Positions 1,546 to 56,085 of a stretch of 64,000 bases of DNA are shown here, in pieces (within the stretch, counting starts at the first letter, position 1; every line of letters begins with the position of its first letter). The stretch covers positions 1,798,001 through 1,862,000 of the forward strand of contig NZ_LT630003.1 of NCBI RefSeq assembly GCF_900105615.1, in the 5' to 3' direction. Below the pieces are notes generated by a model. The model made no database searches, was not told the origin of the DNA, and saw only the letters and a list, made by a program, of their open reading frames with translations. Source of the stretch: Lacrimispora sphenoides JCM 1415 (lineage in GTDB: Bacteria; Bacillota; Clostridia; Lachnospirales; Lachnospiraceae). Position numbers and translations under genes: made by a program.

Positions 1546-1626
1546 TTTTCCTTATGATTGCCCTTAAACTTTGGACTGGGCCCGCCCCGCTCTATCGGGT
1601 GTAAAGGGATACCCGAAGGGTGTTCT
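1546..1626. repeat. Modular intergenic repeat, copy A (upstream of proA)
   Basis: One module of the repeat family also present at 28766, 50060, 52180 and 55908. The GC-rich core (GGGCCCRCCCCGC, then CGGGTGTAAAGG) matches the copies at 50087 and 56039. The segment AAGGGATACCCGAAGGGT (1604-1621) is identical to 28855-28872. It lies between the cycloligase stop and proA, with the T/C-rich end facing the proA ribosome binding site. Confidence 0.7.
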
Positions 1627-1651
1627 TAATCAGTATTTCTTTTTTCTTGCT

Positions 1652-1670
1652 CTTAAGGGAATCCCTTAAG
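1652..1670 (-). other. Perfect inverted repeat at the end of the cycloligase gene
   Basis: CTTAAGGG and CCCTTAAG (8 bp, 3-base loop) overlap the stop codon of the formyl-THF cycloligase gene. No T-run follows directly on the minus strand, so it looks like an mRNA end-stabilising or pausing hairpin rather than a strong terminator; this reading is inference. Confidence 0.45.
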
Positions 1671-2208
1671 GAATGATAATCCGGTCCATGCGTTTGTCAT
1701 GTGGTTCCGTAGGAATATGGTCAAAAACCTGGAAGCCGTAGGCTATGGCAATGCGGGGATGGTTTGGTTCTCGTTCAAAGAACCGGTCATAATATCCGCC
1801 GCCGTATCCGAGCCGGTTTCCCGACTTATCAAAAGCAACTCCCGGAACAATCACAGGTGCTTCCGGATCATAGATTTTTAAGCAGGTTGGTTTGGGCTCC
1901 ATAATACCCATGACGCCTTCTTCTAAATCTGCTTTTCCGGAAATGGAATAAAATTCAAGATCCCTTCCAACGACCTTTGGTACTGCTATGTATTTTCCCT
2001 GTTTTAATAATGCTTCCATAAACTTCCAGGTACCAGCCTCCTGGCGAAAGGATACATAACAGTATACACAATATGCCCGAAGGATATCATCAAGGCTTAA
2101 AAGCTGCTCGCAGATGGCATCGTTCCATAGACTCTCGGTAACCGTTTCCAAGGTCTTTCGCTGCTCCTTTATCAATCGCCTGATATCATTCTTCTCCAAC
2201 TTTTCCAT
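1666..2208 (-). CDS. 5-formyltetrahydrofolate cyclo-ligase
   Basis: Converts 5-formyl-THF to 5,10-methenyl-THF using ATP, feeding one-carbon metabolism. At 180 residues it has normal family length. The diagnostic C-terminal motif GNRLGYGGGYYDRF is present at about residues 131-144, and an N-terminal basic segment (RRLIKEQRK) matches the nucleotide-binding region. The ATG at 2208 lies inside the 3' end of the upstream DUF896 gene (23-base overlap in another frame), and the SD is weak, so translation is probably coupled to that gene. The genetic symbol differs between species (ygfA, yqgN), so none is assigned. Confidence 0.93.
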   Translation of the reverse strand: MEKLEKNDIRRLIKEQRKTLETVTESLWNDAICEQLLSLDDILRAYCVYCYVSFRQEAGTWKFMEALLKQGKYIAVPKVVGRDLEFYSISGKADLEEGVMGIMEPKPTCLKIYDPEAPVIVPGVAFDKSGNRLGYGGGYYDRFFEREPNHPRIAIAYGFQVFDHIPTEPHDKRMDRIIIP

Positions 2209-2407
2209 ACTTTTTACCCAAATCCGTTACGGATCCGTCTTCCTCCTGAATGGAAATGTTGTTTAAATTTCCCCGTAAGCTATTGCGGATGGATTCGATA
2301 TACTCTCTTCGTAAAGCAGCCTGCTCCGCCTGTTCTTCTTCCGATAATCCTGTTGCTTTTGATTTATGATAAAGTGTATTGATTCTGTCGATCTTATCCT
2401 GATTCAT
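2186..2407 (-). CDS. DUF896 family small protein (YnzC-like)
   Basis: A 73-residue acidic, helical protein. The opening NQDKIDRINTLYHKSK and the following GLSEEEQAEQAALRREYI are the signature of the DUF896/YnzC family. These are cytoplasmic two-helix proteins widespread in Firmicutes, in Bacillus linked to the SOS regulon; no biochemical role is firmly established. The ATG follows AAGGAG at normal spacing. It sits between proB (10 bases upstream) and the overlapping cycloligase gene, so it is cotranscribed with both. I see no LexA-type site here. Confidence 0.85.
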   Translation of the reverse strand: MNQDKIDRINTLYHKSKATGLSEEEQAEQAALRREYIESIRNSLRGNLNNISIQEEDGSVTDLGKKYGKVGEE

Positions 2408-2417
2408 AGGGTTCTCC

Positions 2418-3293
2418 TTAATATTCGTGATTAATATAGTCCATTAAGTCAAAGTCATGGTTTGGATGGGCCAGGAACAGGGTTCCTTTTTCTTCGCCTG
2501 TTACGATCTGCTCAATGACCTCTACCTGGTCACCGTTTGCAATGACCATATCGGAACCGCTGTCCGTAGCAATACGGGCGGCAGCAAGCTTTGCAGCCAT
2601 GCCTCCGGTGCCCACATCGCTTCCGGAAGTGGATTTTCCCATATCGAGCAGCTTAGGCGTGATTTCTTTTACCAAGCCGATAAATTCTGCCTTCGGGTTT
2701 TGTCTGGGATCATCGGAATAAAGGCCGTCAATATCCGATAATAAAATCAAAAGATCTGCCCCGATCAATGCGGCAACAATGGCGGAAAGCCGGTCATTAT
2801 CACCAAAATTATCTACCAGAGGAATTTCAGAGGTGGATACGGTATCGTTCTCATTGACAATGGGGATGGTCCCAAGTTTTAAAAGTTCATCAAAGGTGTT
2901 CTGGGCATTATAACGGCTGCTGTCATTAACCATAGTATTTTTGGTTAAAAGAACTTGTGCCGCTATTTGATTATATTCAGCAAACAGTTTTTGGTACACC
3001 ATCATGAGCCTGGCCTGGCCCACGGCGGCGAATGCCTGTTTTTCTGATATGGTAACAGGTCTGGTATGGTACCCAAGAGCCTGACGTCCTGCTGCAATTG
3101 CGCCGGAGGAAACTAAAACCACCTGCTTTCCCTGTCCTTTTAAATCGCTGATTACCCGAACCAGCTTTTCAATTTTCATCAGATTCAAATCCCCTGTGTA
3201 GGCATGGGTTAAGGATGAGGATCCGATCTTTATCACAATCCTTTTTTTATCCTTTAGTTTCTCTCGTTCTGAGACGTTCATCTTCATTATCAT
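2418..3293 (-). CDS. proB: Glutamate 5-kinase, short form without PUA domain
   Basis: First step of proline synthesis: phosphorylates glutamate to gamma-glutamyl phosphate. The amino-acid kinase fold is clear: RIVIKIGSSSLT near the N-terminus, VLVSSGAIAAG, and the substrate region IPIVNENDTVST with DNDRLSA. At about 291 residues it ends right after the kinase domain, so it lacks the C-terminal PUA domain of the E. coli-type enzyme (about 367 residues). Three in-frame ATGs (3293, 3287, 3281) compete and the SD is weak, so the exact start is uncertain. Transcription continues into the DUF896 gene, the cycloligase gene and proA. Confidence 0.95.
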   Translation of the reverse strand: MIMKMNVSEREKLKDKKRIVIKIGSSSLTHAYTGDLNLMKIEKLVRVISDLKGQGKQVVLVSSGAIAAGRQALGYHTRPVTISEKQAFAAVGQARLMMVYQKLFAEYNQIAAQVLLTKNTMVNDSSRYNAQNTFDELLKLGTIPIVNENDTVSTSEIPLVDNFGDNDRLSAIVAALIGADLLILLSDIDGLYSDDPRQNPKAEFIGLVKEITPKLLDMGKSTSGSDVGTGGMAAKLAAARIATDSGSDMVIANGDQVEVIEQIVTGEEKGTLFLAHPNHDFDLMDYINHEY

Positions 3294-3351
3294 CTGCTTT
3301 CTGTATTTCTTTTTGTTTCATATCTTACATCATTTTTGTGGTTTCGTCAAT

Positions 3352-4947
3352 TTATAAAGAAAACCTGTCAAATCTGGAAGCAATGGCTTCCGCCACTTTT
3401 AAGCCGTCCATTGCAGCAGAGGTGATCCCTCCAGCATAGCCGGCGCCCTCTCCGCATGGATAGATTCCGTTGATACTGCATTCAAAGGCTTCGTCTCTTG
3501 GAATGCGTACCGGTGAAGAGGTTCTGCTTTCCACACCAGCCAGGATGGCGTCCTGCCTGGAAAAACCGTGAATCCGTCGTTCAAAGGATTCCACTCCCTG
3601 GATCAGGGATTCTGATAAGTATTCAGGAAGAAAGTCTCTCATGTTGGCAAAATCATATAAACCTTTAAAGGCCGGTTCTACATCGCCAAATGCCTTTGAG
3701 GGCTGATTCTTTTTAAAATCCCCGTAAAGCTGGACTGGAATTTTACCGCTGCTGCTTAAAAAGGCTGCTTCTTCCAGCCGTCTTTGATAAGCGATTCCGG
3801 CAAGGGGAGTTGCTCCGCCAAAATCCTCTGGTGTTACGGTAACAATCAGAGCACTGTTGGCATTTACGCCATCCCTCTTGTGATAGCTCATACCGTTTAC
3901 TGCAAGCCTGTGCTCCTCTGAGGAGGCATTGACTACATATCCTCCGGGACACATACAGAAGGAATATACACCTCTTCCGTTTGTACACTGATGGGTCAGC
4001 TTGTAATCCGCCGGGCCCAGTATCGGATGGTCTCCAGTTCCATACTGAGAACGGTTTATGTTTTCCTGTGGATGCTGGATTCTTAAGCCCACAGCAAAAG
4101 CCTTTGCTTCCATTGGAATGCCTCTTTTATCCAAGACTTCAAACGTGTCCCTGGCGCTGTGTCCGATAGCCAGCACAAGAATTTCTGTGGGAATCTCTTT
4201 CTTTTCATCGACCACTACTCCCTGCAGCCTGCCGTTTTTTACGTTAAAATCGGTCACACGGCTGTTAAAACGGACCTCTCCTCCAAGATTTATGATCTCC
4301 TCCCTCATTCCTTTCACGATGCCGCTTAAAACATCGGTGCCGATATGAGGCTTATTTACATAGAGAATAGAGGGATCAGCTCCAAATTCCACGAAAAGCT
4401 CCAACACCTTCCGGTTCCTCATAAGAGGATCTTTCACAAGGGTATTAAGCTTTCCATCGGAAAAGGTGCCTGCGCCTCCCTCTCCAAACTGTACATTACA
4501 ATCCGGTTTTAATGTCCCGCCATTCCAGAATAAGTCCACTGCCTCCCTGCGCTTTTCCACGGACTCTCCTCGTTCCAGAAGAAGGGGATGGTATCCGTGT
4601 CTTGCCAGCATGAGCCCGCAAAAAAGTCCGGCCGGTCCGGCACCGATGATAACCGGCCGGCTGGTCATTCGTTCAGTACCCGGCTTTGGAAAGGAATATT
4701 CTTTTTTCTCTGATATTCCAATATCTCCGCTTTTTGCTTTATGTATCACATACTCTTCTTTTGTAGTTTCCACATCGATGCTGTAAGTAAAATGGATTTC
4801 CTCTTTTTTTCTTGCATCAACAGACTGTTTGATTATTTGAATGGAGCGGATTTCCTTTACCGGAATTTTTAGTGTTTTTGCTGCCTTCGCCCATAAGGCC
4901 TCTTCTGTGTGATCCACCGGCAGCTTTAATTGATTAATTCTGATCAT
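3352..4947 (-). CDS. FAD-dependent dehydrogenase (COG2509-type)
   Basis: Predicted cytoplasmic flavoprotein of about 531 residues. After an N-terminal domain of about 95 residues comes a dinucleotide-binding motif, PVIIGAGPAGLFCGLMLAR, followed by GTFSDGKLNT and a C-terminal FAD-binding region, NGIYPCGEGAGYAGGITSAA. This layout matches the conserved 'NAD(FAD)-utilising dehydrogenase' family whose substrate is unknown. The start is put at the ATG at 4947, where GAGGAA lies six bases upstream; an earlier in-frame start near 5061 would lie deep in the preceding gene. It overlaps the 3' end of the HI0933-type oxidoreductase gene by 14 bases, so the two flavoproteins are translationally coupled. 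Confidence 0.85.
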   Translation of the reverse strand: MIRINQLKLPVDHTEEALWAKAAKTLKIPVKEIRSIQIIKQSVDARKKEEIHFTYSIDVETTKEEYVIHKAKSGDIGISEKKEYSFPKPGTERMTSRPVIIGAGPAGLFCGLMLARHGYHPLLLERGESVEKRREAVDLFWNGGTLKPDCNVQFGEGGAGTFSDGKLNTLVKDPLMRNRKVLELFVEFGADPSILYVNKPHIGTDVLSGIVKGMREEIINLGGEVRFNSRVTDFNVKNGRLQGVVVDEKKEIPTEILVLAIGHSARDTFEVLDKRGIPMEAKAFAVGLRIQHPQENINRSQYGTGDHPILGPADYKLTHQCTNGRGVYSFCMCPGGYVVNASSEEHRLAVNGMSYHKRDGVNANSALIVTVTPEDFGGATPLAGIAYQRRLEEAAFLSSSGKIPVQLYGDFKKNQPSKAFGDVEPAFKGLYDFANMRDFLPEYLSESLIQGVESFERRIHGFSRQDAILAGVESRTSSPVRIPRDEAFECSINGIYPCGEGAGYAGGITSAAMDGLKVAEAIASRFDRFSL

Positions 4948-6187
4948 TACGTTCCTCATTCCTGCCCCGAAGGACAGCCTTTCCTGCACTAGTACCTGCC
5001 AGTATGCCGCAAGACCACGCCCACTGAAGGTTATAACCTCCGCAGATGCCGTCCACGTCAAGAATTTCCCCAGCCAGGTAAAGTCCGTTCATTAGTTTTG
5101 ACTCCATGGTATTAGGGTCCACATCCCTGGTATCAATGCCTCCGCTGCACACCTGAGCCTGATCAAAGGAATTAGTGGCTATGATTTCTGTTTTAAGTCC
5201 CTTTAAAGCAGAGGCCAGCTTTTTAATCTGCAGGGTTGTGATATCTTTAACAAAGCCTTTCTCTGGGATCCCGGCTTCCTTTAAAAGAATCCGGGCAAGC
5301 TTGTGATTTAATACGCCATTTAAAAATTCTTCCGCCGGCCGGTAACGAAAGCGCGTTGCCCTTTCCGAAAGAAGCTGTCTGGTACTGTTAAAATCCATGG
5401 AAGGTAATAAATCCAGCTCTGCCGTCACCTGCCGGCCTGCATCGATTCCCCCGGCAGCAAAACGGCTGACCTGGAAAACCGGAATGCCGGAGATTCCATA
5501 ATCCGTGAACTGAAGTTCCCCGCGGTCTTCTGCTGCAGTTTTTCCGTCTATTTTGAGCGTCACAGAAGCCTCTGTCCTGACACCGGCTGCCTGTTTGTAC
5601 CACTTTTCCCTGCACTTTAGCTGTACCAAAGCAGGCAGCGGCTTAATAATGCGGTGCCCCAAAGCCCTCGCCAGCTGATAACCGCTTCCATCGGATCCTG
5701 TTTTTGGTGCCGCCATGGAACCTGCCGCTAATATGATGGCATCTGCCTTTTTCTTTCCTTTGGAAGTCATCAGGGTTAAATCCTTCCTTATCTCCTCAAC
5801 CTGACAGTCAGTGATGATGGAAACGCCCAGATGGTTAAGTTCAAAAAGTAGCGCTTCTAAAACGGAGACAGCTTGTCCGGTATTGGGATAGACATATCCA
5901 TTCCGGTCTGTAAGTACAAGACCCAGGTCCTGGAAAAATTCCAATGTCTGTTCCACCGTTATGTGATCCAGCACTTTTTTAATAAACTCCTGCTGACCTC
6001 CCCGGTAAGCGCCATCAGGGGTCATTCGATTGGTTAAATTGCATTTCCCATTACCGGTGGAAAGAAGTTTTTTTCCCGGTTTGGCTGTATGTTCTAAAAC
6101 GGTAACAGAAGCACCCTGTCTGGCTGCCTGGATAGCCGCTGCCAGACCGGAAGCTCCTGCTCCTACGATGAATACCTGTTGTTTCAT
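4934..6187 (-). CDS. HI0933/BaiN-type NAD(P)/FAD-dependent oxidoreductase
   Basis: 417-residue flavoprotein. The N-terminus carries the Rossmann motif FIVGAGASGLAAAIQAARQG and the family signature GKKLLSTGNGKCNLTN. The C-terminus has the FAD contact segment GLYLAGEILDVDGICGGYNL. Members are soluble flavoproteins of mostly unknown substrate; BaiN in bile-acid 7-dehydroxylating clostridia belongs to this family, but nothing here supports that specific role. The SD is excellent (AGGAGG). It is followed by the other FAD protein gene with a short overlap and preceded, after 66 bases, by the BofC-like gene. Confidence 0.88.
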   Translation of the reverse strand: MKQQVFIVGAGASGLAAAIQAARQGASVTVLEHTAKPGKKLLSTGNGKCNLTNRMTPDGAYRGGQQEFIKKVLDHITVEQTLEFFQDLGLVLTDRNGYVYPNTGQAVSVLEALLFELNHLGVSIITDCQVEEIRKDLTLMTSKGKKKADAIILAAGSMAAPKTGSDGSGYQLARALGHRIIKPLPALVQLKCREKWYKQAAGVRTEASVTLKIDGKTAAEDRGELQFTDYGISGIPVFQVSRFAAGGIDAGRQVTAELDLLPSMDFNSTRQLLSERATRFRYRPAEEFLNGVLNHKLARILLKEAGIPEKGFVKDITTLQIKKLASALKGLKTEIIATNSFDQAQVCSGGIDTRDVDPNTMESKLMNGLYLAGEILDVDGICGGYNLQWAWSCGILAGTSAGKAVLRGRNEERNDQN

Positions 6188-6253
6188 AAAATCCTCCTGT
6201 ATCCTCAGACAGACTTATTGTATCCAGTTTGCCTCTTCATTTCAAGTATTTCT

Positions 6254-6640
6254 TTAGCTTGTATAGGATTCCAGGTAATTAAATACCTCGATCATGGAAG
6301 AAAACCATATGCCATCCATTAATTTCCCACGCTCTTCCTCGGGAAAGTCAGTGACGGGCATATGGGTATAAAGGCAGATGGTTGTTTTATCCTGGTAGAG
6401 GACGAGAAGATATCCGTCCTCTGAGACAAGATAAAATTTTTCTTTGCCTTTTGCATTTACGGTTTCAACCTCTTCCTGGTTTATAACAATCTGCGCTTCC
6501 GTTACAGTTTCTGTTTCTATGGTTGCCCCCGGCAGAGCCTCCTCATGCCTTACGCTGTCCTTTGTAATGGCAAATCCAATTCCTAAGCAGATGGCGGATG
6601 CCGCTACGAACAAAAGAAAGCAGAACATATACTTCTTCAT
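6254..6640 (-). CDS. Exported or membrane-anchored protein with BofC C-terminal-like domain
   Basis: 128 residues. The N-terminus (MKKYMFCFLLFVAASAICLGIGFAI) is a signal peptide or signal anchor. After a polar linker of about 45 residues, the segment from about residue 68 (KFYLVSEDGYLLVLYQDK, then a HMPV turn, GIWFSS and a final YLESY) follows the pattern of the BofC C-terminal domain. In Bacillus, BofC acts in the forespore-mother cell space on the sigma-K checkpoint, but this domain is also common in small clostridial proteins of unknown role. The SD AAGGAGG is strong. The domain call is by eye and moderately certain; the role is unknown. Confidence 0.55.
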   Translation of the reverse strand: MKKYMFCFLLFVAASAICLGIGFAITKDSVRHEEALPGATIETETVTEAQIVINQEEVETVNAKGKEKFYLVSEDGYLLVLYQDKTTICLYTHMPVTDFPEEERGKLMDGIWFSSMIEVFNYLESYTS

Positions 6641-6694
6641 GAGTTGATACCTCCTTCATGTAAGTATAGTATCTGCCTTCTTCCTGGGTTTTAA

Positions 6695-12237: not shown

Positions 12238-12261
12238 TTTATTTCACCTCCAGTACCCTTT

Positions 12262-12528: not shown

Positions 12529-12591
12529 AATCCCTTTTCTGCCCCTCTCTTTTTATTTTTGCAAATCAATTTGGGGATTTAACCCCTTTAT

Positions 12592-12620: not shown

Positions 12621-12637
12621 TACGGCATTAAAAGTCG

Positions 12638-12673: not shown

Positions 12674-12688
12674 CTCATCTTTTAACTA

Positions 12689-27434: not shown

Positions 27435-28760
27435 TTATTCCTTTCCGCTTCTTTCTCTGTATATAAACTTAAGGGAGGTTCCCCGGAAACCGAATGCTTC
27501 CCGGATCTTATTCTCTAAATACCTGGTATAGGAAAAGTGAGTCAATTCCTTATCGTTTACAAAGATTACAAAAGTCGGAGGCTTAACAGCAACCTGGGTG
27601 ATATAATAGAGTCTTAATCGTTTGCCCTTATCGGACGGGGGCTGCTGAAGGGCCACGGCTTCTGACATGATTTCATTTAGAACTCCAGTGGCTACCCGAA
27701 GAGTCTGGTTCTCCCGAACCATATCAATCACCTCGAACATTTTATTCATCCTTTGACCGGTTTTTGCAGAGATAAATAAGTATTCTGCATAAGGCATAAA
27801 GGATAAAGTATTCTTGATCTTGTTTGTATATTCATAGATGGTCTTATCGTTCTTTTCAATGGCATCCCATTTGTTGACTGCAACAACGATGCCCTTTCCA
27901 CGCTCATGGGCAATACCCGCAATTTTTGCATCCTGTTCGGTTACGCCTTCTTCCGCGTCAATGACCACTACCACCACATCGGCCCGTTCAACTGCCGTAA
28001 CGGTACGGATGATGCTGTAGCGCTCCAGTTCCTCTTTGATCTTACTCTTCCGTCTCAGACCTGCCGTATCAATGAACACATATTCCGTGCCATTATGAAC
28101 GATCTCCGTATCCACCGCATCCCTGGTAGTACCTGCAATATTGGAAACAATGACCCGGTTTTCTCCCAGGAGCTGATTTATAATAGAAGATTTGCCGACG
28201 TTTGGCTTTCCTACAATTGCAATTCTCGGCCTGTCATCCTCTTCTTCCTCTGTATCAAAGGTGCTAAAATGCTTTGCCACCTCATCAAGAAGCTCTCCAA
28301 GGCCCAGTCTGGAAGCAGCAGAAACAGGGACCGGATCCCCGATTCCTAAGTTATAGAACTCATATACATCATTCCCGAACTTCTGGAAGCTGTCCACTTT
28401 ATTGACAGCAAGAACGATGGGCTTTTTGGATTTACGAAGCATGTCAGCGACCTTGGAATCAGAGTCCACAAGTCCCTGACGTACATCCACGATAAAAATG
28501 ATGACATCTGCGGTGGCAATGGCGATCTCCGCCTGTTCCCTCATCTGGGACAGGATGATGTCGCTGCTGTCCGGCTCAATACCCCCTGTATCAATCAGGG
28601 TAAAATTCATATCCAGCCAGGTACAGTCTGCATAGATCCGGTCCCTGGTAACGCCTGGTGTGTCCTTTACAATAGAAATGGTGTCACCGGCTAAAACATT
28701 AAACAACGTAGACTTTCCCACATTGGGGCGGCCTACGATGGCAACTACTGGTTTACTCAT
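27435..28760 (-). CDS. der: Ribosome assembly GTPase Der (EngA)
   Basis: 441-residue protein with two tandem GTPase domains and a C-terminal KH-like domain, acting in 50S subunit assembly. G1 motifs occur twice: [16 protein letters not shown] at residue 5 and [16 protein letters not shown] at about 180. The corresponding DTGG/DTAG and NKVD/NKWD motifs are also present. It has an AAAGGA site donated by the adjacent repeat module. It is followed by plsY after four bases. Confidence 0.97.
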
Positions 28761-28765: not shown

Positions 28766-28925
28766 ATTTCCTTTCTCTATTCCGCCCATGCATTTGGTAC
28801 ATAAAGGTATGCCCGCATGGTGTTTCTTCCTCTCGACCACGTTTTCCGCGCATTAAGGGATACCCGAAGGGTATTTCCCCTTTTCTGCCGGATGTTCCGG
28901 TTATGAGGGTATACCCGTAAGGTTG
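28766..28925. repeat. Modular intergenic repeat, locus B (three degenerate modules)
   Basis: Three successive modules fill the gap between the DUF512 gene and der. Each has a T/C-rich start (TTTCCT or TTTCTTCC), a GCCCATGC/CCACGTT middle and an AAGGGTATRCCCG end. The third module runs through the DUF512 stop codon at 28901 and encodes its last residues (LTGIPS). The first module ends in the SD of der. Confidence 0.7.
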
Positions 28926-30274
28926 TTTAATTCATACCCTTCATAAGAAGCTTCATTCTCTTCTACCGGCATAAGAACTGCCTGTACAAAATCCTGACCG
29001 CTTGATTTTACAATATCTACCTGTACTTGTAAAGCATTTTGTACATCCTGACGGGTCAGGTCATCAAGAAATACCTCTTCTCCGCTTCGGAACATGCATT
29101 CCGGAAGCAACAACCGTCTGCCCAGTGCCTGTCCCTTAAGCTGTCCGATTAAATCCTGGCCGGTGATTAGGCCTGCCACTGTGATTTGCTCCCCGAAAAA
29201 GTCATTGGTAATAGGGTAAACGTGAATGATCCGCCCGGGAAATTTTTCCTGTACCAGTTTTGCATGTCTACCAATATAAGGGGCGGCAAGCCTGCCTGTT
29301 GCGATTGAGATCTCTTCAGACTTATGGTCATCTTCCAAAGTTTCCAGAGCGGCCCTAATCTCCTCATCCAAAAGCCTCAGCATGCCTACGCCGTTTTCCA
29401 GCTGAATATATCCGTCGTAACGGCTCTCTTCCGGAAAAGGCAGCCCTGCCAGGATATAAAGCTCGTCACTGGCATGAATGAAATGGGTTCCATGGGTTTT
29501 ATAAAGCTTATTCTGCCATCGTCCGATGATCTCCACGATCTCTTTTGCATCCTCAGCCGTAAAGGGCTGTAAAGGATAAAGACCATCCCGGTATTTTGAC
29601 ATTCCAACAGGGACAGCGGATACGCTCTCCATATATGGGAGGTATTCTGATAAATCCTCTATGGTCCTCTCCAGCTCCTTTCCGTCATTGACGCCCTTGC
29701 ACAGCACAATCTGTCCGTTCATGGGAATCCCTGCCTCATACAGCCTCCTGATTTTATCCAGAGCTTGGCCTGCAAACCGGTTGTGAAGCATCTCGCACCT
29801 TAAAGCAGGATTGGTGGTGTGAACGGAAATGTTGATCGGTGCCAGTTTAAACTTTATGATTCGGTCAATGTCATGATCGCTCATGTTAGTCAGTGTCACG
29901 TAGTTTCCCTGTAAAAAGGAAAGCCTGGAATCGTCATCCTTAAAATACAGGGTCTCTCTCATTCCAGGGGGCATCTGGTCTATAAAGCAGAAAATGCATT
30001 TATTCCGGCAGGATCTGTATTCACTCATGAGTCCGTTTTCAAAAGTAATCCCCAGATCCTCGTATTGGTTTTCTATTTCCAGTTCCCATTCTTCCCCGTC
30101 TTTCTTTTTCACGGTCATGAGAATGGACTCGCTGTTAATGTAATACTCATAATCAAAAATGTCTTCCAGTTCATGACCATCTATGGACAGGACCGTATCC
30201 CCTGGCTCCAGTTCCAGCTGATCTGCTATGGAGCCGGAATCAACTTCTTTTATGATATGTCCTCTTTTGCTCAT
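28901..30274 (-). CDS. DUF512 family radical-SAM-like Fe-S protein
   Basis: About 457 residues. An N-terminal PDZ-like segment (SGSIADQLELEPGDTVLSID) is followed by the cysteine cluster CRNKCIFCFIDQMPPGMRETLY (read as CxxxCxxC, residues about 90-97), LSFLQGNYVTLTN, and a C-terminal DUF512 domain. The family resembles NifB/MoaA-type proteins, but its reaction is unknown. The ATG at 30274 has AAAGG ten bases upstream; an in-frame start at 30304 has no SD. It sits upstream of der as in many clostridia. Its last six codons fall in a repeat module. Confidence 0.88.
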   Translation of the reverse strand: MSKRGHIIKEVDSGSIADQLELEPGDTVLSIDGHELEDIFDYEYYINSESILMTVKKKDGEEWELEIENQYEDLGITFENGLMSEYRSCRNKCIFCFIDQMPPGMRETLYFKDDDSRLSFLQGNYVTLTNMSDHDIDRIIKFKLAPINISVHTTNPALRCEMLHNRFAGQALDKIRRLYEAGIPMNGQIVLCKGVNDGKELERTIEDLSEYLPYMESVSAVPVGMSKYRDGLYPLQPFTAEDAKEIVEIIGRWQNKLYKTHGTHFIHASDELYILAGLPFPEESRYDGYIQLENGVGMLRLLDEEIRAALETLEDDHKSEEISIATGRLAAPYIGRHAKLVQEKFPGRIIHVYPITNDFFGEQITVAGLITGQDLIGQLKGQALGRRLLLPECMFRSGEEVFLDDLTRQDVQNALQVQVDIVKSSGQDFVQAVLMPVEENEASYEGYELNNLTGIPS

Positions 30275-37161: not shown

Positions 37162-37165
37162 ACGG

Positions 37166-45125: not shown

Positions 45126-45126
45126 A

Positions 45127-46005: not shown

Positions 46006-46015
46006 ATATTGTTCC

Positions 46016-48175: not shown

Positions 48176-48918
48176 AAGCTTACCTCCCTGCCAATTTGCG
48201 GATCAATTAAAACAACAGCTATATTGTCTTTCCCGCCATTATCATTGGCTATTGTAATCAACTTTTCTGCCTTTTCCTGCAGTTCCAGTTCTGAGCATAT
48301 AATTTCTTCTATCTCAGCGTCCTCAACCATATTGCTGAGTCCATCGGAACACATGAGCACATAATCTCCAGGTTCCAGACTGACTTCAAAAAAATCAACC
48401 TCCAGCTTATCCTCTGTACCAACCGCTCTTGTTATAATATTCTTTTTTTCCAGATAATCCCGGCTTCCGCGTTCCAGTTTGCCTAAAGACACCAATTCTT
48501 CCACGTAGGAATGGTCCTTTGTAATCTGTTGCAGCCGATTATTATTAACCAGATACAGACGGCTGTCTCCAACATTAGCCACATACATGGTAGTATCTTC
48601 GATCACCGCCGCCACCAAGGTGGTTCCCATACCGTTTAACTCTGTACTTTTCATGGATTCCTGATAAAGCATTCCGTTGACCTTCAAGATTTCATCCCGA
48701 AGAAGCGGAACAATACCAGACGAATCCGCCTGTTTTAAGTGAGCCACCAGACTTTCGGCAATATATCTGGAGGCATAATCTCCGGCCTGATGGCCGCCCA
48801 TGCCGTCTGCAACTAAAAAAAGATTGGGCAGTGTGCCCAAAGGCTCTGCCTGGGCATAGACATAATCCTGATTGGCCGTACGGACTCTTCCGATGTCCGT
48901 CATAGCGCAAGCCTTCAT
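48172..48918 (-). CDS. prpC: PP2C-type protein phosphatase, partner of PrkC
   Basis: 248-residue Mn-dependent phosphatase. The metal-binding aspartates are seen in LFLVADGMGGHQAGDYASRY, ANVGDSRLYLV, MCSDGLSNM and NGGKDNIAVVL. It reverses phosphorylation by the kinase encoded directly downstream. The annotated ATG at 48918 has no SD at ideal spacing: GAGGAA is 14 bases away and is better placed for an ATG-AAA-CGA-TGA mini-frame whose TGA overlaps the prpC ATG, so translation may be coupled to that three-codon frame. Confidence 0.95.
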   Translation of the reverse strand: MKACAMTDIGRVRTANQDYVYAQAEPLGTLPNLFLVADGMGGHQAGDYASRYIAESLVAHLKQADSSGIVPLLRDEILKVNGMLYQESMKSTELNGMGTTLVAAVIEDTTMYVANVGDSRLYLVNNNRLQQITKDHSYVEELVSLGKLERGSRDYLEKKNIITRAVGTEDKLEVDFFEVSLEPGDYVLMCSDGLSNMVEDAEIEEIICSELELQEKAEKLITIANDNGGKDNIAVVLIDPQIGREVSL

Positions 48919-49008
48919 CGTTTCATTCTCACTTCCTCTTTATTTCTGTAAGCAACGTGCCAGATGCGGGAATGCCTGCATTCCTTTATCCGGCGAATGC
49001 TTCAAAGG

Positions 49009-50052
49009 TCAATTTGTCTCCTGATTTAAAAAGCTTTTCCTCAGCTGTCCGCAGGCACCGTTAATATCTCGTCCCATTTCTCTTCTTATAGTAACATTTA
49101 TTCCGTTTTTTTCAAGAAGATTTTTAAAGGCTTCTATTGCCTTCCGGTCTGACTGCACGTAATTGCGCTCCTTAATAGGGTTTACCGGAATCAGATTTAC
49201 ATGCCCATGCTGGCCCTTTAAAAGAGCCGACAGGGCGGATGCTTCCTTTAAATTGTCGTTGACACCGCTCACCAGGCTGTATTCAAAAGTAAGCCTTCTC
49301 CCTGTTTTATCAAAATACATTTGGCAGGCATCCAGCACATCCTTTAGAAGGAATCGATTGGCAACGGGCATCAGGGTTTTTCTCACCTCATCGTTTGGTG
49401 CATGAAGAGACAATGCCAGGGTAATCTGCAGATCCTCTTCCGCCAGTCGAAGAATTCCAGGAACGATGCCGCAGGTGGATACCGTTATGTTGCGCTGGCT
49501 GATATTCAGTCCGTTTTCATCAGTAAGAAGGCGAATGAATTGAACCAGATTATCATAATTGTCTAAAGGTTCTCCGGAACCCATGACAACCACATTGGAA
49601 ACCCGTTCACCGGTAATTCTCTGGATCCGGTATATCTGATCAAGCATTTCAGAAGGGGTTAAATTTCTTTCCAATCCGTCAAGTGTGGAAGCGCAGAACC
49701 GGCAGCCCATGCGGCAGCCTACCTGGGATGAAATGCAGACAGAATTCCCATGCTTGTATTTCATCAAAACGCTTTCAATCACATTTCCATCGGAAAGGGC
49801 AAATAAGTATTTTCTTGTTTCATCTATTTTCGAAATCTTTTCCTCAACAACTGTAAGGCAGGTGAATTCTGTCAGCTGCATAAGCTTTTCCTTCAGTGAA
49901 TTGGGCAGATTTGTCATTTCATTAAAATCAGAAGCCAGCTTCTGGTGCAACCATTCATAAAGCTGTTTTGCTCGGAAGGGCTTTTCTCCTATGGATACCA
50001 TATAGGATGTCAGGTGTTCCATATCCAGAGATTTTATATCTATTTTATCCAT
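49009..50052 (-). CDS. rlmN: Dual-specificity RNA methyltransferase RlmN
   Basis: 347-residue radical-SAM enzyme that makes m2A2503 in 23S rRNA and m2A37 in tRNA. The iron-sulphur motif is CRMGCRFCAS at about residues 113-122; the SAM region VVVMGSGEPLDNYDN and the substrate cysteine near the C-terminus (RDINGACGQLRKS) are present. The SD GAGGAAA belongs to the end of the repeat module at 50060. Confidence 0.97.
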   Translation of the reverse strand: MDKIDIKSLDMEHLTSYMVSIGEKPFRAKQLYEWLHQKLASDFNEMTNLPNSLKEKLMQLTEFTCLTVVEEKISKIDETRKYLFALSDGNVIESVLMKYKHGNSVCISSQVGCRMGCRFCASTLDGLERNLTPSEMLDQIYRIQRITGERVSNVVVMGSGEPLDNYDNLVQFIRLLTDENGLNISQRNITVSTCGIVPGILRLAEEDLQITLALSLHAPNDEVRKTLMPVANRFLLKDVLDACQMYFDKTGRRLTFEYSLVSGVNDNLKEASALSALLKGQHGHVNLIPVNPIKERNYVQSDRKAIEAFKNLLEKNGINVTIRREMGRDINGACGQLRKSFLNQETN

Positions 50053-50059
50053 TATCCAT

Positions 50060-50128
50060 TTCCTCTATTCTGCCCATGCTCTTCGGCAGGGCCCACCCCG
50101 CTTTACCGGGTGTAAAGGTATGCCTGTG
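50060..50128. repeat. Modular intergenic repeat, copy C (between rsmB and rlmN)
   Basis: One module filling the whole 78-base gap. It shares an uninterrupted 34-base identity (50087-50120) with the copy at 56039-56072. Its left end provides the rlmN SD; its right end begins directly after the rsmB stop. Confidence 0.8.
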
Positions 50129-50130
50129 CT

Positions 50131-51462
50131 CTACCTTTTTTGAAATGCCGCAATAAAAAATCCGTCACAGGGATGGATTCCCGGCAAAAGCTGTATAAAC
50201 TCCCGGTTTGCGGCGGCTGAATCCAGCCCTTCCCCAAGTTTTCCCTCCAGACTTATGCAGTCAAAAGGAAAATGCTCAAGAAACCACCGGGCATTTTCTT
50301 CATTTTCCTTTCGATTTATGGTACATGTACTGAAAATCAGGCGTCCGCCCGGTTTTACATATGCCTGGACAACCGACAGGATATTCCGCTGGAGCGCAGC
50401 CAAAGAATCCAGGGCTTCCGGCGTCATGCGGTATTTGATGTCCGGCTTTCGTCCAATGATCCCAAGCCCGGAACAAGGCAGATCGGCAATGACTATATCC
50501 GCCTTTTCCACTGAATCCGGGTCAGCCACAAGTGCATCCTGGACTTTTGTGCGGATATTTAAAAATCCGCATCGTTTCATATTTTCTTCGACCATATTTA
50601 TCTTTAAGAGGCTTAGGTCCCGGACCTCCACCATGCCCGTCCCGTCAAGCTTATCTGCTATATGAATGCTCTTTCCTCCCGGTGCGCCGCAGACGTCAAT
50701 GACGTAATCTCCCTTTTGAGGATCAGCGATTTCACCTACAAAACTGGAACTTAGATCCTGAACCTGGATATATCCCTTTTGGAATGCTTCCAGACCTTCC
50801 AGATAATCATATTTTTCAATGCAAAGCACTGCTTCTGAGATTCCGGACTCACTTACTTCTGTCCCCTGCTTTTTAAGGCTCTGAAGGATTTCTTCTTTTG
50901 AAGCCTTTGCAAAATTGCAGCGGACGGTGGTTTTTTTATTTTTTAAAAAGGATTCCATCATGGTGACTGCTGTTTCCCTGCCATAGGTTTCTTCCCACAT
51001 GGATACGATCCATGCCGGCATAGAATAACGGACAGAATCATCGGGCCAGCCCAATCCCTCTTTATTTCTGGAAATATTCCTAAGCACTCCATTGACAAAT
51101 CCCTTTAATCCTGTAAATTTCCGTTTCACGGCAAGTTTCACCGCTTCGTTGCATACGGCAGAATCGGGAACACGGTCCATATAAAGAAGCTGATAGACCG
51201 ACATGCGCAAAATAGTGCGTATTACCGGTTTCATCTTTGAAACTTTTGTACTAGAAAAGGAATCAATGATATAATCGATCTGAAGCAGGTATTCTACAGA
51301 CCCCTCTACGATTCTGGAAATGAAGGCCCGTTCCGATTTATCCAGATACTGATACTTATTCAGAGCCTGGCGCAGGATGATATGGCTGTAGCCACCCCGC
51401 TCCAGAATCTCTAACAGGATATCCAGTGAGATTTCCCTGCTGTCTGTCTCTTTAGTCATCAT
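50131..51462 (-). CDS. rsmB: 16S rRNA (cytosine-967-C5)-methyltransferase
   Basis: 443-residue Sun/Fmu family enzyme. An N-terminal NusB-like RNA-binding domain (about 1-150; FISRIVEGSVEYLLQIDYII) precedes the SAM domain with VIDVCGAPGGKSIHIADKL, IADLPCSGLGIIGRKPDI and the catalytic cysteine region IFSTCTINRKENEEN. The ATG at 51462 follows GGAGG at eight bases; the in-frame TTG at 51477 is part of the SD. It overlaps the metallopeptidase gene by 11 bases. Confidence 0.96.
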   Translation of the reverse strand: MMTKETDSREISLDILLEILERGGYSHIILRQALNKYQYLDKSERAFISRIVEGSVEYLLQIDYIIDSFSSTKVSKMKPVIRTILRMSVYQLLYMDRVPDSAVCNEAVKLAVKRKFTGLKGFVNGVLRNISRNKEGLGWPDDSVRYSMPAWIVSMWEETYGRETAVTMMESFLKNKKTTVRCNFAKASKEEILQSLKKQGTEVSESGISEAVLCIEKYDYLEGLEAFQKGYIQVQDLSSSFVGEIADPQKGDYVIDVCGAPGGKSIHIADKLDGTGMVEVRDLSLLKINMVEENMKRCGFLNIRTKVQDALVADPDSVEKADIVIADLPCSGLGIIGRKPDIKYRMTPEALDSLAALQRNILSVVQAYVKPGGRLIFSTCTINRKENEENARWFLEHFPFDCISLEGKLGEGLDSAAANREFIQLLPGIHPCDGFFIAAFQKR

Positions 51463-52168
51463 TCCTTCTTCCTCCAAACAAAATAACCAGCCTTAAAAGC
51501 TGAAGTACGGTTGCAGCAAGTGCTGCCACATAGGTAAGGGCTGCCGCACCAAGCACTTTTCTGGTATAACCTAATTCCTGGTCACCTAAAATCCCCACCT
51601 GGCCCAAAAGAGTGACCGCCCGGCTGGAGGCATTGAATTCCACAGGCAGGGTGATCAGCTGGAAAATTACCGCCAGAGAAAACAGGATCAGACCGATATT
51701 CACTAAGGGAGAACCGATTCCCCCTATAATTACCCCAAGAATAATGAGAGGCAGTGCTGCCTTGGAGCCAATATTGGCTGCCGGCACAATGGCTGCCCGG
51801 AGTTTCAGAGGAATATAACCTGTGTTGTCCTGCATCACATGTCCGCATTCGTGTGCTGCGACACCGATTGCCGCCACTGATGTGGAACCATAAACAGAGT
51901 CAGACAGGTTAACAGTTTTGGTTCTGGGATCATAATGATCCGTAAGCTGCCCGCCTACAGACCTTACCTGAACATCATAAATGCCCTGGGAATTTAAAAG
52001 GCGCTTTGCTGCTTCTGCCCCTGTCATTCCGGACATGCTTCTTACTTTTGAATATTTATTAAATGTGCTGTTCACCCTCGCAGATGCCACCATGGACAGA
52101 ACTGCTCCGATGATGACCAGGATCCAGGTCGGATCCCAATAATATCCCATCATTCCGCCATAATACAT
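51452..52168 (-). CDS. Membrane zinc metallopeptidase (YugP family)
   Basis: 238 residues with an N-terminal transmembrane segment, the zinc motif VAAHECGHVMQD (HExxH at about residues 113-117) and further hydrophobic segments in the C-terminal half. It matches the YugP/neutral zinc metallopeptidase family; the substrate is unknown. Its SD (GGGGAG) lies within the last codons of fmt. Placement between fmt and rsmB is frequent in clostridia. Confidence 0.9.
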   Translation of the reverse strand: MYYGGMMGYYWDPTWILVIIGAVLSMVASARVNSTFNKYSKVRSMSGMTGAEAAKRLLNSQGIYDVQVRSVGGQLTDHYDPRTKTVNLSDSVYGSTSVAAIGVAAHECGHVMQDNTGYIPLKLRAAIVPAANIGSKAALPLIILGVIIGGIGSPLVNIGLILFSLAVIFQLITLPVEFNASSRAVTLLGQVGILGDQELGYTRKVLGAAALTYVAALAATVLQLLRLVILFGGRRNDD

Positions 52169-52170
52169 AA

Positions 52171-53160
52171 TCAGACTCCCCTTTCTTCTTTCTTGCCCAC
52201 GTTTTCTGTGCTTTTAGGTATGTCCGCAAGCCGCTCCAAAACGGTGCCTTTTGCAATGGGATATCCGCGCAGAAACGCGTCAATATCCATGCATTTTTTC
52301 CCTTGCAGCTGAAGTTTTCGGATGGATAAGCCGCCTTTTCCGGTTTTTATGACCAGGCAGTCCCGGCTAACCTCTGCCACCTGGCCATAACCCCCTTCAT
52401 ACTCCTTATCCACTACTTCTGCTTCCCATAGTTTCATCACTTTTCCATTCCAGACTGTATAGGCGCTGGGCCATGGGTTTAATCCACGGATCAGGCGTTC
52501 AATGGATACTGCATCCATAGACCAGTCAATATCTCCCATAGACTTTTTTATCATGCCCACATAGCAGGCCTTGGAATCATCCTGGGGGATACGTATGGCA
52601 GTTCCATCTTCCAGTTTGTCTATGGTTTTTAAAATAAGCCTGCCTCCCAGCCTGCTCAGCTTATCATGAAGGCTGCCGAAAGTTTCTTTTTCATCCAAAA
52701 ATATGGCTTCCTGGTCCAGCATATCTCCGGTATCCAGAACCTCAGCCATCATCATGGTTGTGACGCCGCTTTCCTTTTCCCCGTTAATGACCGCATATTG
52801 TAAGGGAGATGCACCGCGGTACTTAGGGAGCAGAGAAGCGTGGATATTCACACAACCGTATTTGGGAATATCCAGTATGGACTTTGGCAGTAGCTGTCCG
52901 AAAGCGATCACTAAGATCAGATCTGGTTCCAGATCCGAAAGAATTTTGACAAATTCCGGATCCCTGGCTTTGACCGGCTGGTAAACAGGGAGTTGGTATT
53001 CCAACGCCTTCTCCTTTACCGGAGTCATCTGGACTTCCTTCCCTCTTCCCTTGGGTTTATCCGGCTGGGTAACTACCGCAAGGATCTCATGTCCAGCCTC
53101 TTTTATAGCCTCAAGAGCGGGAACGGAAAAATCAGGTGTTCCCATAAATATGATACGCAT
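52171..53160 (-). CDS. fmt: Methionyl-tRNA formyltransferase with repeat-encoded C-terminal tail
   Basis: 329-residue enzyme that formylates Met-tRNAi using 10-formyl-THF. The catalytic domain has IIFMGTPDFSVPALEAI, NIHASLLPKYRGASPLQ (His of the active site) and GVTTMMMAEVLDTGDML; the C-terminal tRNA-binding domain is present. The last 20 or so residues (about ADIPKSTENVGKKEERGV) are encoded by a module of the intergenic repeat and make the protein longer than the 310-315 typical of the family. It follows def after two bases; def acts on its product. Confidence 0.95.
   Translation of the reverse strand: MRIIFMGTPDFSVPALEAIKEAGHEILAVVTQPDKPKGRGKEVQMTPVKEKALEYQLPVYQPVKARDPEFVKILSDLEPDLILVIAFGQLLPKSILDIPKYGCVNIHASLLPKYRGASPLQYAVINGEKESGVTTMMMAEVLDTGDMLDQEAIFLDEKETFGSLHDKLSRLGGRLILKTIDKLEDGTAIRIPQDDSKACYVGMIKKSMGDIDWSMDAVSIERLIRGLNPWPSAYTVWNGKVMKLWEAEVVDKEYEGGYGQVAEVSRDCLVIKTGKGGLSIRKLQLQGKKCMDIDAFLRGYPIAKGTVLERLADIPKSTENVGKKEERGV
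52180..52228. repeat. Modular repeat, copy E, fused into the 3' end of fmt
   Basis: The plus-strand string TTTCTTC, then CCACGTTTTC, TTTTAGGTATGTCCGCAAG aligns with the second module at locus B (28823-28872) over its whole length. It encodes the last residues of fmt and is followed by the SD of the metallopeptidase gene. Confidence 0.6.
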
Positions 53161-53162
53161 AA

Positions 53163-53657
53163 TTATTCTTCAACCTCTCCTTCTTCATCCTCATCCAGGG
53201 AGACATCCTCCAGCTCGCCTTCCACTTTGTCTACGTATAAATCGCCGTTTAAATGGTCGCATTCATGACAGATTGCACGAGCTAAAAATCCTTCTCCTTC
53301 CAGTTCGAACGGCTCCATGGAAGCATCAAAAGCTTTTACCCTTACGTAATCGGGCCTGGTAACCGTTCCGGATTTTCCGGGAACGCTAAGGCAGCCTTCC
53401 GGCCCGGTCTGACTTCCTCTTGTTTCCACGATGTCCGGATTAATAAGTACATACTGGTTGCCATCATCTACATCTATAACTACGATCTGTTTTAAAATTC
53501 CCACCTGGGAAGCTGCAAGGCCAACTCCATTTGATTCATACATGGTTTCAAACATATCTACGATCAACTCGGAAATCCTTGGTGTAATCTCTTTTACAGG
53601 TTTGCAGTGCTTTCTTAAAATTTCATCTCCAATGGTTCTAATCTTTCTAATTGCCAT
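53163..53657 (-). CDS. def: Peptide deformylase
   Basis: 164-residue metalloenzyme that removes the N-formyl group from new proteins. The three motifs are GVGLAASQVGI, EGCLSVPG and HECDHLNG, with metal ligands Cys and two His. An acidic tail (about 15 residues, EDVSLDEDEEGEVEE) is unusual in its charge but not rare in clostridia. It lies between priA and fmt, the common Firmicute order. Confidence 0.96.
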   Translation of the reverse strand: MAIRKIRTIGDEILRKHCKPVKEITPRISELIVDMFETMYESNGVGLAASQVGILKQIVVIDVDDGNQYVLINPDIVETRGSQTGPEGCLSVPGKSGTVTRPDYVRVKAFDASMEPFELEGEGFLARAICHECDHLNGDLYVDKVEGELEDVSLDEDEEGEVEE

Positions 53658-53675
53658 TTTCTTTTATCCTCTCAT

Positions 53676-55904
53676 TTATGAAAAATCATATTGAATCATC
53701 ACCTGATCAAACAACTGCCGATGGTTTTCTGAAAAAACATCGATTTGATCCCTGATTTTTATTAGTATATCATAGTTTTCCTGTTTCAAGTATAAAATTT
53801 TTCTATAGATATCATTAATTTTGTAAACGCTCGCATCTACCGGGCCGATGACCTGTACTGCTTCCTGTTCCGCAAGGGGGTCAATAAACCCGGCTGTTAA
53901 AGCCGCTGCTTCTTTTAAGCAATCTTCCTGTCTGGAGGAAAACTGAACGGTTAAAAGGCCGCTTGCCGGAGGGTATTTCATCAGGCGCCGATATGCCATT
54001 TCCTGTTGGTAAAACGCCTCATAATCCTGATTTGCGGCTGTTACAATGCTGTAATGCTCCGGACTATAGGTCTGAATGACCACGTCACCGTTTCTGGAAT
54101 CCCGTCCGGCTCTCCCTGCCGCCTGGGTTAATAGCTGGAAGGTACGTTCTGCCGAACGGTAGTCCGGGGTATTCAAAGACAGGTCTGCCGCCAGCACCCC
54201 TACCAGAGTTACATTAGGGAAATCATGCCCTTTTACGATCATCTGAGTTCCGATAAGGATGTCAGCCTCTCCCTCAGAGAAAGCGGTAAGTATCTCCTCA
54301 TGTCCTCCCTTTTTGGAGGTGGTGTCCAGATCCATTCGCAGGACTCTGGCAGCTGGGAACATCTTTTTTGTCATTTGCTCTATCTTCTGGGTTCCCACTC
54401 CGAAATTGGCAATGTAAGGAGAACTGCATGCAGGACAGCGGTCTGGCATGGATATGGAATAACCGCAATAATGACAGACAAGACGGCTGTTATTATGAAG
54501 TGTCAGGGTAACGTCACAGTGTGGGCAGCGAATGGCTTCGCCGCAGGAACGGCAGGAAACAAAATTTGCATAACCGCGCCTGTTGATAAACAGCATGGCC
54601 TGCTCCCGCTTCTCCAGCCGGTCCTCGATCAGTGTCTGTAAATTCCTGCTGAAAATGGATTTATTGCCTTCTTTTAGCTCCTGCCTTAAATCCACCACTG
54701 ATACCGCAGCCAGACGGCTGTTTTTTTTGGCCCGTTCTGTCAGGCGGAAAAGCCGGTATTCCCCATGAAGGGCTTTTGTATAAGCTTCCAGGGATGGAGT
54801 CGCCGAACCTAAAACCAAAGATGCCCCCTGCATGGAGGCCCTTTTCTCAGCCACCTCTCTGGCATGGTATCTTGGAGATACCTCACTTTTGTAAGCCCCC
54901 TCATGCTCTTCGTCTATCAGAATCAGCCCCAGACGGGAAAAGGGAGTAAACAGGGCCGAGCGGGGACCGATCATAATATCAATATCTCCGTTTCTTGCCC
55001 GTTCAAACTGGTCGTACCGTTCCCCTGCTGACAATCTTGAATTGATGATGGACACCCGGTTCCCAAATCTTCCGTAGAACCGCAGGACGGTCTGGTAGGT
55101 CAGGGCAATCTCCGGTATGAGAACGATCACCTGCTTCCCATCCTCTATGACCCTTTGGATCAGTTCCATGTAAACTTCCGTCTTTCCGCTTCCCGTAATG
55201 CCATGGATCAGATAGGTCTTTCTTAACGATTGGGAATAATCCAGGCTAAAGCTGTCTGCAATGGCCTGCTGTTCCTCATTTAAAACCACCTTACTTCTTT
55301 CTTTTGCATCTGTTTTAACAGGATTTCTGTAAACCTCTTCACGATCAAGGCTTACGTATCCTTTTTCTATCACCGGCTTTAAGGTGGCAGCAGAAAGATT
55401 CATCTGGTTGACTGCAATTTCGTATGGGATGACAGGATTTTCCATAAGCGCCTGAAAGAGTCGCGCTCTGGCCTTATATTTCTTTTTTTCCGCTTCCTCT
55501 AAAGCATTGATAAGCTGAGAATAACCCAAAAGGCTTTTAATCACCTTTTTTTCCTTTGGCTTTACCTTTTGCTTTACCGGAAGAACCGTTTTTAATGCCT
55601 GGTTCATGGTGGAGCCATACCGTTCTTTCAGCCACCATGCCAGGGAAATGAGCAGGGATTCCGCTGATACTCCATCCGTTACGATCCCTGCTATTTCCTT
55701 AATTTTATCCGGATCATAATCCGCATGGGCGGCAATGCCTACCACATACCCTTTCCGCATGGAATTTCCTTTTCCAAAAGGAATCAAAACCAGAGACCCC
55801 ACAGCCACTTCATCAAGAAGCCCGGCCGGAATCCGGTAATCAAAGGTTCTGTCAACTTTTTCATGGGAAATATCAATAATAATCCGGGCATATCGTTCCG
55901 TCAT
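53676..55904 (-). CDS. priA: Primosomal helicase PriA
   Basis: 742-residue 3'-5' DNA helicase that restarts stalled forks. The N-terminal DNA-binding domain opens with RYARIIIDISHEKVDRTFDY. Walker A (GITGSGKTEVYMELI) is at about residue 235 and DEEH at about 330. The zinc-cysteine cluster (CRSCGEAIRCPHCD, then CHYCGY and CPACSS) lies at about 448-490, followed by the RecG/PriA-type helicase C domain. The ATG at 55904 follows GAGGAAA. An in-frame extension of 48 codons to 56048 consists of repeat sequence and is rejected. Confidence 0.96.
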   Translation of the reverse strand: MTERYARIIIDISHEKVDRTFDYRIPAGLLDEVAVGSLVLIPFGKGNSMRKGYVVGIAAHADYDPDKIKEIAGIVTDGVSAESLLISLAWWLKERYGSTMNQALKTVLPVKQKVKPKEKKVIKSLLGYSQLINALEEAEKKKYKARARLFQALMENPVIPYEIAVNQMNLSAATLKPVIEKGYVSLDREEVYRNPVKTDAKERSKVVLNEEQQAIADSFSLDYSQSLRKTYLIHGITGSGKTEVYMELIQRVIEDGKQVIVLIPEIALTYQTVLRFYGRFGNRVSIINSRLSAGERYDQFERARNGDIDIMIGPRSALFTPFSRLGLILIDEEHEGAYKSEVSPRYHAREVAEKRASMQGASLVLGSATPSLEAYTKALHGEYRLFRLTERAKKNSRLAAVSVVDLRQELKEGNKSIFSRNLQTLIEDRLEKREQAMLFINRRGYANFVSCRSCGEAIRCPHCDVTLTLHNNSRLVCHYCGYSISMPDRCPACSSPYIANFGVGTQKIEQMTKKMFPAARVLRMDLDTTSKKGGHEEILTAFSEGEADILIGTQMIVKGHDFPNVTLVGVLAADLSLNTPDYRSAERTFQLLTQAAGRAGRDSRNGDVVIQTYSPEHYSIVTAANQDYEAFYQQEMAYRRLMKYPPASGLLTVQFSSRQEDCLKEAAALTAGFIDPLAEQEAVQVIGPVDASVYKINDIYRKILYLKQENYDILIKIRDQIDVFSENHRQLFDQVMIQYDFS

Positions 55905-55907
55905 TGT

Positions 55908-56085
55908 TTTCCTCTTTTCTGCCCATGCTATTTGGGCATAAAGGTATACTCGTGAGTGTTTCCTCTTTTCTGCCCATGCTATTTGGGCATAAAGGTATAC
56001 TCGTGAGTGTTTCCTCTTTTCTGCCCACGTTCTTCGGTCAGGGCCCACCCCGCTTTACCGGGTGTAAAGGTACGCCTTATGCGGC
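55908..56085. repeat. Modular intergenic repeat, locus D: tandem array before priA
   Basis: Two copies of a 51-base unit (55910-55960 and 55961-56011) are essentially identical; a third unit starts at 56012 and continues into the GC-rich core shared with 50087-50120. Each short unit has a GCCCA/TGGGC hairpin. The end next to priA supplies GAGGAAA, its SD. The 51-base period keeps one frame open without stops. Confidence 0.9.

Follow-up and report, generated by a model that had tools for sequence, protein, structure and literature searches.

A short folded repeat stands before several genes in a 64,000-nt stretch of Lacrimispora sphenoides JCM 1415 (contig NZ_LT630003.1, positions 1,798,001 to 1,862,000; referred to below as the window), part of a 5.3-Mb single-contig genome that we label G000. 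This repeat is probably a very small, non-autonomous mobile element of Lachnospiraceae, which uses the Shine-Dalgarno (SD) box of the gene that it precedes and supplies that box anew. Here we describe how the repeat is built and oriented, which box it targets, in how many copies it occurs, how whole units turn over and how its arrays are polar. The repeat looks undescribed. Rfam 15 yields no gathering match in the window and none at E<=1 in eight array loci, in line with a first-pass annotation that had not recognised the sequence. Among the papers that searches of open-access literature listed, no title or abstract start describes it, which is weak evidence, with subscription journals mostly uncovered.

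Structure, number and position of the repeat

On the coding strand the unit measures 51-52 nt and consists of two hairpins, which a conserved linker joins and a purine-rich tail follows. Hairpin 1 (CACCC-UNC-GGGT) is preceded by a GGAAA box, the linker reads ATACCNNNATG, and hairpin 2 (TGCCC-loop-GGGCA) is variable in sequence with its pairing preserved. The tail of about 12 nt again ends in GGAAA, and the element core spans about 40 nt. Arrays contain one to four units in a single orientation, mostly with a tandem period of 51-52 nt, and the tail of one unit doubles as the left box of the next. What the first-pass annotation had seen in plus-strand view as a T/C-rich head is this tail, which is often, but not always, the SD itself; its GC-rich core corresponds to about 24 additional bases of a long variant, by eye a further GC-rich hairpin. 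The G+C content is 0.41-0.54 for the seven window units that match at E<=3.4e-5, and 0.445 in a 400-kb sample of the own genome.

Both hairpins covary. In the within-genome alignment 92.1% of cells are paired, with 17 double-changed cells versus 4.1 in shuffled controls, and sliding the hairpin partners drops pairing to 50% or less. A cross-genus alignment (A2), composed of 36 hand-picked units from loci of other genera and one consensus-like Lacrimispora unit, has 92.4% of cells paired and 35 double-changed cells versus 6.8, a value reached by none of 500 shuffles. The number of pairs with a double change is less striking (5 versus 3.0 shuffled; 12 of 500 shuffles as high). RNAalifold on its own recovers hairpin 1 only.

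How widespread is the repeat? We built a covariance model (R1) from 37 units. Run against the own genome, it gives at least 141 units at E<=0.1, only two of them above 0.001; this is a lower bound, since only the best 150 of 2651 candidates were scored. A blast search of the same genome with the priA array of the window gives at least 44 matches (best 40 of 80 candidates scored). The repeat number is far beyond chance, and the family survives the genome-wide copy search that had been set beforehand as its refutation test. Within the genus, each of the 25 genomes is matched at E<=0.001, with counts between 4 and at least 143 (best 150 candidates scored per genome): five genomes hold 4-6, one incomplete genome 8, eleven 19-35, and eight at least 100-143. 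The family was sampled with one genome per genus, the own one included, under stricter filters and with scoring of the best 18 candidates in each; at E<=1e-4 the repeat is found in 34 of these 299 genomes, which adds 33 other genera, four of them with at least 15-18 matches. A class-wide sample of 391 genomes gave three with a match at E<=1e-5, all three members of this family (best 13 candidates scored each). A pattern scan of named genomes returned 34 stretches, from Lacrimispora celerecrescens, L. xylanisolvens, Clostridium sp. Marseille-P2415, uncultured Lachnospiraceae, other Clostridia and the two records with a Paenibacillaceae title that are taken up below. Carriage by phages or plasmids was rejected, as the priA array is without a match in either collection; one viral contig holds an exact-pattern copy of the repeat near the contig edge.

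Position relative to genes was counted in 400-kb samples of five genomes (26 arrays in G018, 17 in G000, 16 in G009, 12 in G008 and 10 in G005), by a loose rule that accepts any ATG, GTG or TTG of an open reading frame (ORF) of at least 100 aa and was applied equally to a random control. Of the 81 arrays, 75 are followed on their own strand by a start codon within 60 nt and 69 within 25 nt, compared to 27.1% and 15.6% of 40,000 random places; on the opposite strand, a start codon lies within 60 nt in 12 of 81. The 60-nt rule also holds for 27 of 29 arrays among the own-genome blast loci, and in other genera a start follows no more than 45 nt away in 62 of 67 arrays (ORFs of at least 60 aa, without random control; L227, L232, L258 and L271, with no match at E<=0.001, are left out of the 67). 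Random placement is thereby contradicted, and the earlier statement that the repeat always abuts a start codon stands as a strong tendency but not as a rule. The downstream genes are unrelated to one another.

Is the start codon itself the attraction? The six misses of the census include one locus in three genomes with identical downstream sequence, and in G000 the first base of a T-box leader (RF00230, 108.5 bits; L102 6138-6362, minus strand) falls there among the final four bases of the unit's tail. In G008, a 51-nt unit (L182 16105-16160, plus strand) lies just 3' of a GTG start, in frame as judged by eye, where four relatives without the copy read GTGAAAGAAGAA. The T-box-leader site and the in-gene-start site suggest that the common target is a GGAAA-type purine-rich box rather than translation, with the SD as its usual case.

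Empty sites, turnover and the spread of the repeat

The repeat is present at a site in some genomes and absent from it in others. At the priA-def junction, 18 of 21 genomes (own included) have a junction of 17-20 nt containing GAGAGGAYA. G009 holds one unit and G008 two, each then followed by AGAGGATA, which is the gene's own box and not the family consensus; G018 holds a degenerate copy. In G000 and its closest relatives the site is empty, which reflects a loss at a later time or else an independent gain. A second site holds two units in G000 and G018, where G009 has the sequence GGGGAGAGGAAACCATG. One array of G008 and two of G009 are absent from all four relatives compared, and all three stand 3' of purine boxes. 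Two further candidates for private arrays were rejected, one being also in G009, the other lying within an array that others have.

In other genera, single units at L239 and, upstream of an rplB-like gene, at L233 are flanked by GTTATAATGAA and CCACAATGAA, respectively, both non-consensus. L233, a 10-nt case, stands outside the flank counts given here and below, since the model match ends at position 47; it may also be the rest of a two-unit array, as four relatives have two units there. Overall, the two flanks have a common substring of at least 8 nt in 12 of 66 arrays, versus a mean of 3.1 in shuffled controls, a count reached by none of 500 shuffles.

For 14 of the 17 G000 arrays a syntenic counterpart exists in G020, with flanks 97-100% identical; in 6 of these 14 cases the two genomes differ by whole units (51, 52 or 126 nt). 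Upstream of a 1770-nt gene, the difference is most simply read as a precise loss in G020, as the unit is kept in G005 and G018. The priA array likewise varies, with 3 units or part-units in G000, 1 in G020, 4 in G005, 1 in G006, 2 in G018 and 1 in G008. Arrays are also polar. The gene-proximal unit is nearest to consensus in 27 of 38 arrays by the whole model, and in six genomes its core score is higher in 23 and lower in 10 of 34 multi-unit arrays (p=0.0007); taken singly, the genomes give 6/8 (G000), 8/10 (G018) and 1/3 (G009).

By what route might such a unit spread? A folded unit would be inserted in trans 3' of a GGAAA-like purine box by a recombinase or transposase, entering either with target duplication or through recombination within the box. 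With its last bases repeating the box, the element would leave the gene an SD at the right distance; because it ends in the same box, insertion would be nearly harmless and the next unit could enter at the same place. Arrays would arise by repeated entry or by slippage, and single units could be lost by deletion between flanking boxes. More tentatively, and with less confidence than we have in mobility as such, we suggest a dedicated Lachnospiraceae insertion system, whose attachment site is the SD-type purine box and whose folded element of about 40 nt rebuilds that box and grows polar arrays on the gene side. If true, this would be a mobile element with the ribosome-binding site as its safe harbour.

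Several observations weigh against a mobile element, the search for its mover among them. The enzymes looked for (Y1_Tnp, RVT_1, Cas1 and IS110) identified no mover. Y1_Tnp (PF01797) is present in 20 of 25 genus genomes and has no match in the single-contig genomes G005 and G008, with at least 142 and 143 unit hits, respectively, by which an IS200- or RAYT-type (REP-associated tyrosine transposase) mover was rejected as a present-day requirement. RVT_1 matches in 23 of 25 genus genomes and not in G009, another high-copy single contig, and a reverse transcriptase was set aside as mover on this ground. Cas1 matches in G013 and G019 only; it too was rejected, because the other 23 of the 25 genus genomes, at least one single-contig high-copy genome among them, are without a match. 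The IS110-type DEDD transposase (PF01548) is uninformative: it matches everywhere, at E<=0.001 in 25 of 25 genomes and over the cut-off in 22, in high- and low-copy genomes alike. (IS110-type matches number 40 in G024, counting fragments, and 1-11 in the remaining members of the genus.) An autonomous longer copy with the same ends was found nowhere in 2.4 Mb, where left-only and right-only end matches gave one weak pair at chance level. A 2.6-kb insert between murF and priA in G019, at first sight such an autonomous copy, was discarded as an assembly artefact (L069 1900-4600), with the murF and priA ends duplicated around an N.

The flanks, too, speak partly against it. A clean, universal target duplication was looked for across arrays and not found. 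Cleaned of three probable array remnants (G018 at a block edge, L245 and L268) and two orthologues, the flank match holds in 7 of 61 arrays versus 2.7 shuffled (4 of 500 shuffles reach it), which is modest and a minority; in the G000 and G005 rows, the 10 shared bases match the sequence behind the tail, not the tail itself, and the left-right match position by position is weak. In the genus of G138, a unit upstream of rplB stands behind GATAAAAGGAAA in G324, G334 and G330, with the tails ATTAACAAGGAAA, ATTAATAAGGAAA and CTAATAAGGAAA, respectively, and the same site is empty in G331, G138 and G326; this insertion brought its own tail, which speaks against simple target duplication. Losses such as that in G020 at the 1770-nt gene can mimic empty sites. 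Many loci are common to several species, so that much of the spread must be old, and the census and the polarity test count arrays common to related genomes, which are non-independent data. Two records titled Paenibacillaceae metagenome-assembled genome (L048 and L054) contain exact matches to the repeat pattern; either that name is wrong or the repeat may not be confined to one family.

The strongest competitor holds that the repeat is a cis-acting motif of mRNA leaders, acting in stability, processing or translation start, with copies spread by rare duplication and gene conversion. The strong covariation of both hairpins, the fixed orientation and distance to the start codon, the best-preserved gene-proximal unit and a minimum free energy that in 78 of 92 arrays is lower than for shuffled sequence all agree with it, and covariation and polarity are compatible with a mobile element and with an mRNA role alike. 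Nevertheless we consider it unlikely. The first-pass annotation had offered both spread into SD regions and a function in mRNA, and spread is the better evidenced, because the genes are unrelated, a single genus shows match numbers between 4 and at least 143, whole units turn over between close relatives, and there are the T-box and in-gene sites. Folding gives no hint of a raised SD accessibility either: the tail is unpaired at 0.62 versus 0.68 with shuffled upstream sequence, and more so in 35 of 92 arrays, so that the idea of hairpins keeping the SD open is not supported.

A retro-element-like route, in which a reverse transcriptase acting in trans would copy the unit RNA back into DNA at purine boxes, would suit the covarying structure, the single orientation relative to the gene and the presence of RVT_1 in most genus genomes, but high-copy G009 is without an RVT_1 match, and we regard this route as improbable. 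Many genus genomes, of high and low copy, have a weaker-matching RVT_1 protein whose open frames span about 333-377 aa (e.g., G000:C1:1155766-1156323). Equally improbable is a reading without any mobility, in which an ancient sequence undergoes only slippage and tandem duplication in place. This would explain that units inside one array share locus-specific tails, that whole units are gained and lost and that many loci are common to species, but not sites where a few genomes hold one or two units and most are empty, arrays absent in four relatives, or genus-wide differences in match number.

The five junctions of the window

Related modules are indeed present at all five junctions named by the first-pass annotation. 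R1 recovers seven of the nine modules at E<=3.4e-5, all on the minus strand (1547-1632, 28771-28832, 28874-28934, 50059-50140, 52182-52243, 55908-55958 and 55959-56019). An eighth, the middle module of the 28.8-kb site (28826-28883), scores E 1.4e-6 in the own-genome run, and the ninth, the long module at 56020-56085, is visible by sequence only.

One long-variant unit (1547..1632, minus strand; R1 36.4 bits) lies upstream of an aldehyde-dehydrogenase-family gene (Pfam Aldedh), presumably proA. Its tail ATAAGGAAAA is followed by a distinct SD, GGAGG, and the ATG at 1528. Upstream of der/engA (Pfam; ATG at 28760), covariance matches and sequence define a three-unit array at 28771..28934 (minus strand). 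A second single long-variant unit (50059..50140, minus strand; R1 29.0 bits), with the tail AATAGAGGAAA, precedes rlmN (Pfam; ATG at 50052); where the unit is lacking, in 13 genus genomes, this junction is a mere 7-11 nt long. The unit at 52182..52243 (minus strand; R1 29.3 bits) stands upstream of a Zn_peptidase_2 gene (Pfam; ATG at 52168). It is spanned by the fmt ORF (52171-53160, minus strand), and the element here codes for C-terminal residues of Fmt.

The array upstream of priA (Pfam; ATG at 55904) begins with two short units at 55908..56009 (minus strand; sequence and R1), identical over 51/51 nt, and the tail AAAAGAGGAAA nearest to priA is the gene's SD. Its third unit (56010..56085, minus strand), defined by sequence, is a long variant with a degenerate 5' end. 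It has 34 nt in common with the rlmN unit, and the reported identity of 50087-50120 and 56039-56072 is exact and not longer than 34. Elsewhere in the window, two 44-nt direct copies (60806-60849 and 60900-60943; 86% identical, 94 nt spacing) fall by eye outside this family.

Comparison with other small bacterial repeats

Most small bacterial repeats lie 3' of genes or elsewhere between them. The present repeat is found where translation of housekeeping genes is signalled to start: in the window at rlmN, priA and der, in relatives also at dnaK and rplB (these two named by eye from the first residues). It would show mobile DNA colonising a highly constrained part of genes without breaking housekeeping functions. 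Sites that are filled or empty, with one to four units, would provide natural experiments on leader hairpins and translation, and the arrays could serve as a fast-changing marker for strain typing.

What kind of repeat is this? Repetitive extragenic palindromic (REP) sequences and the REPINs built from them, with their RAYT (Y1) transposases, are likewise short, extragenic hairpin repeats of high copy that are probably moved in trans. The differences lie in the lack of Y1_Tnp in the two single-contig, high-copy genomes G005 and G008, and in direct tandem arrays of one orientation, 5' at SDs, with a flanking GGAAA box. Bacterial interspersed mosaic elements are described as having alternating orientations (PMC2817692), and most REPs as hairpins tagged by a GTAG or CGTC tetranucleotide (PMC3733652); the consensus here has GGAAA before hairpin 1 in place of such a tag.

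The BOX, RUP and SPRITE repeats of pneumococci (PMC3049150), as that account presents them, are also small interspersed hairpin repeats of a Firmicute with variable unit number. BOX is described there as distinct boxA-boxB-boxC modules with terminal inverted repeats (PMC3049150); here, one unit without a terminal inverted repeat is bound to the SD. The BOX-type modularity that the first-pass annotation had been reminded of does not hold, for a single repeated unit and its longer variant take the place of three different modules in the fixed order boxA-(boxB)n-boxC.

Miniature inverted-repeat transposable elements (MITEs) are similarly non-autonomous, small and structured, sometimes with target duplication. 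The present repeat differs in that it is not AT-rich, has a core of about 40 nt and one target box, and by eye is without terminal inverted repeats: the consensus starts with CACCC and ends with AGGAAA, whose reverse complement TTTCCT is unlike the start. A MITE-type target-site duplication is clear at some loci, absent at one insertion upstream of rplB, and overall found in the 7 of 61 arrays mentioned above (2.7 shuffled). Cyanobacterial small dispersed repeats are very small and thought to be mobile. They differ in sequence, structure and SD target. With CRISPR arrays there is an analogy only, in polar arrays whose best-preserved unit stands at one end beside a fixed box; the repeat differs from these in that variable spacers are absent and 23 of 25 genus genomes are without a Cas1 match. 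Since it lacks defining features of both REP and MITE, we class it apart from the two. It is grouped with the small interspersed bacterial repeats, is REP- or MITE-like in its working, and is distinguished by its target, the ribosome-binding site.

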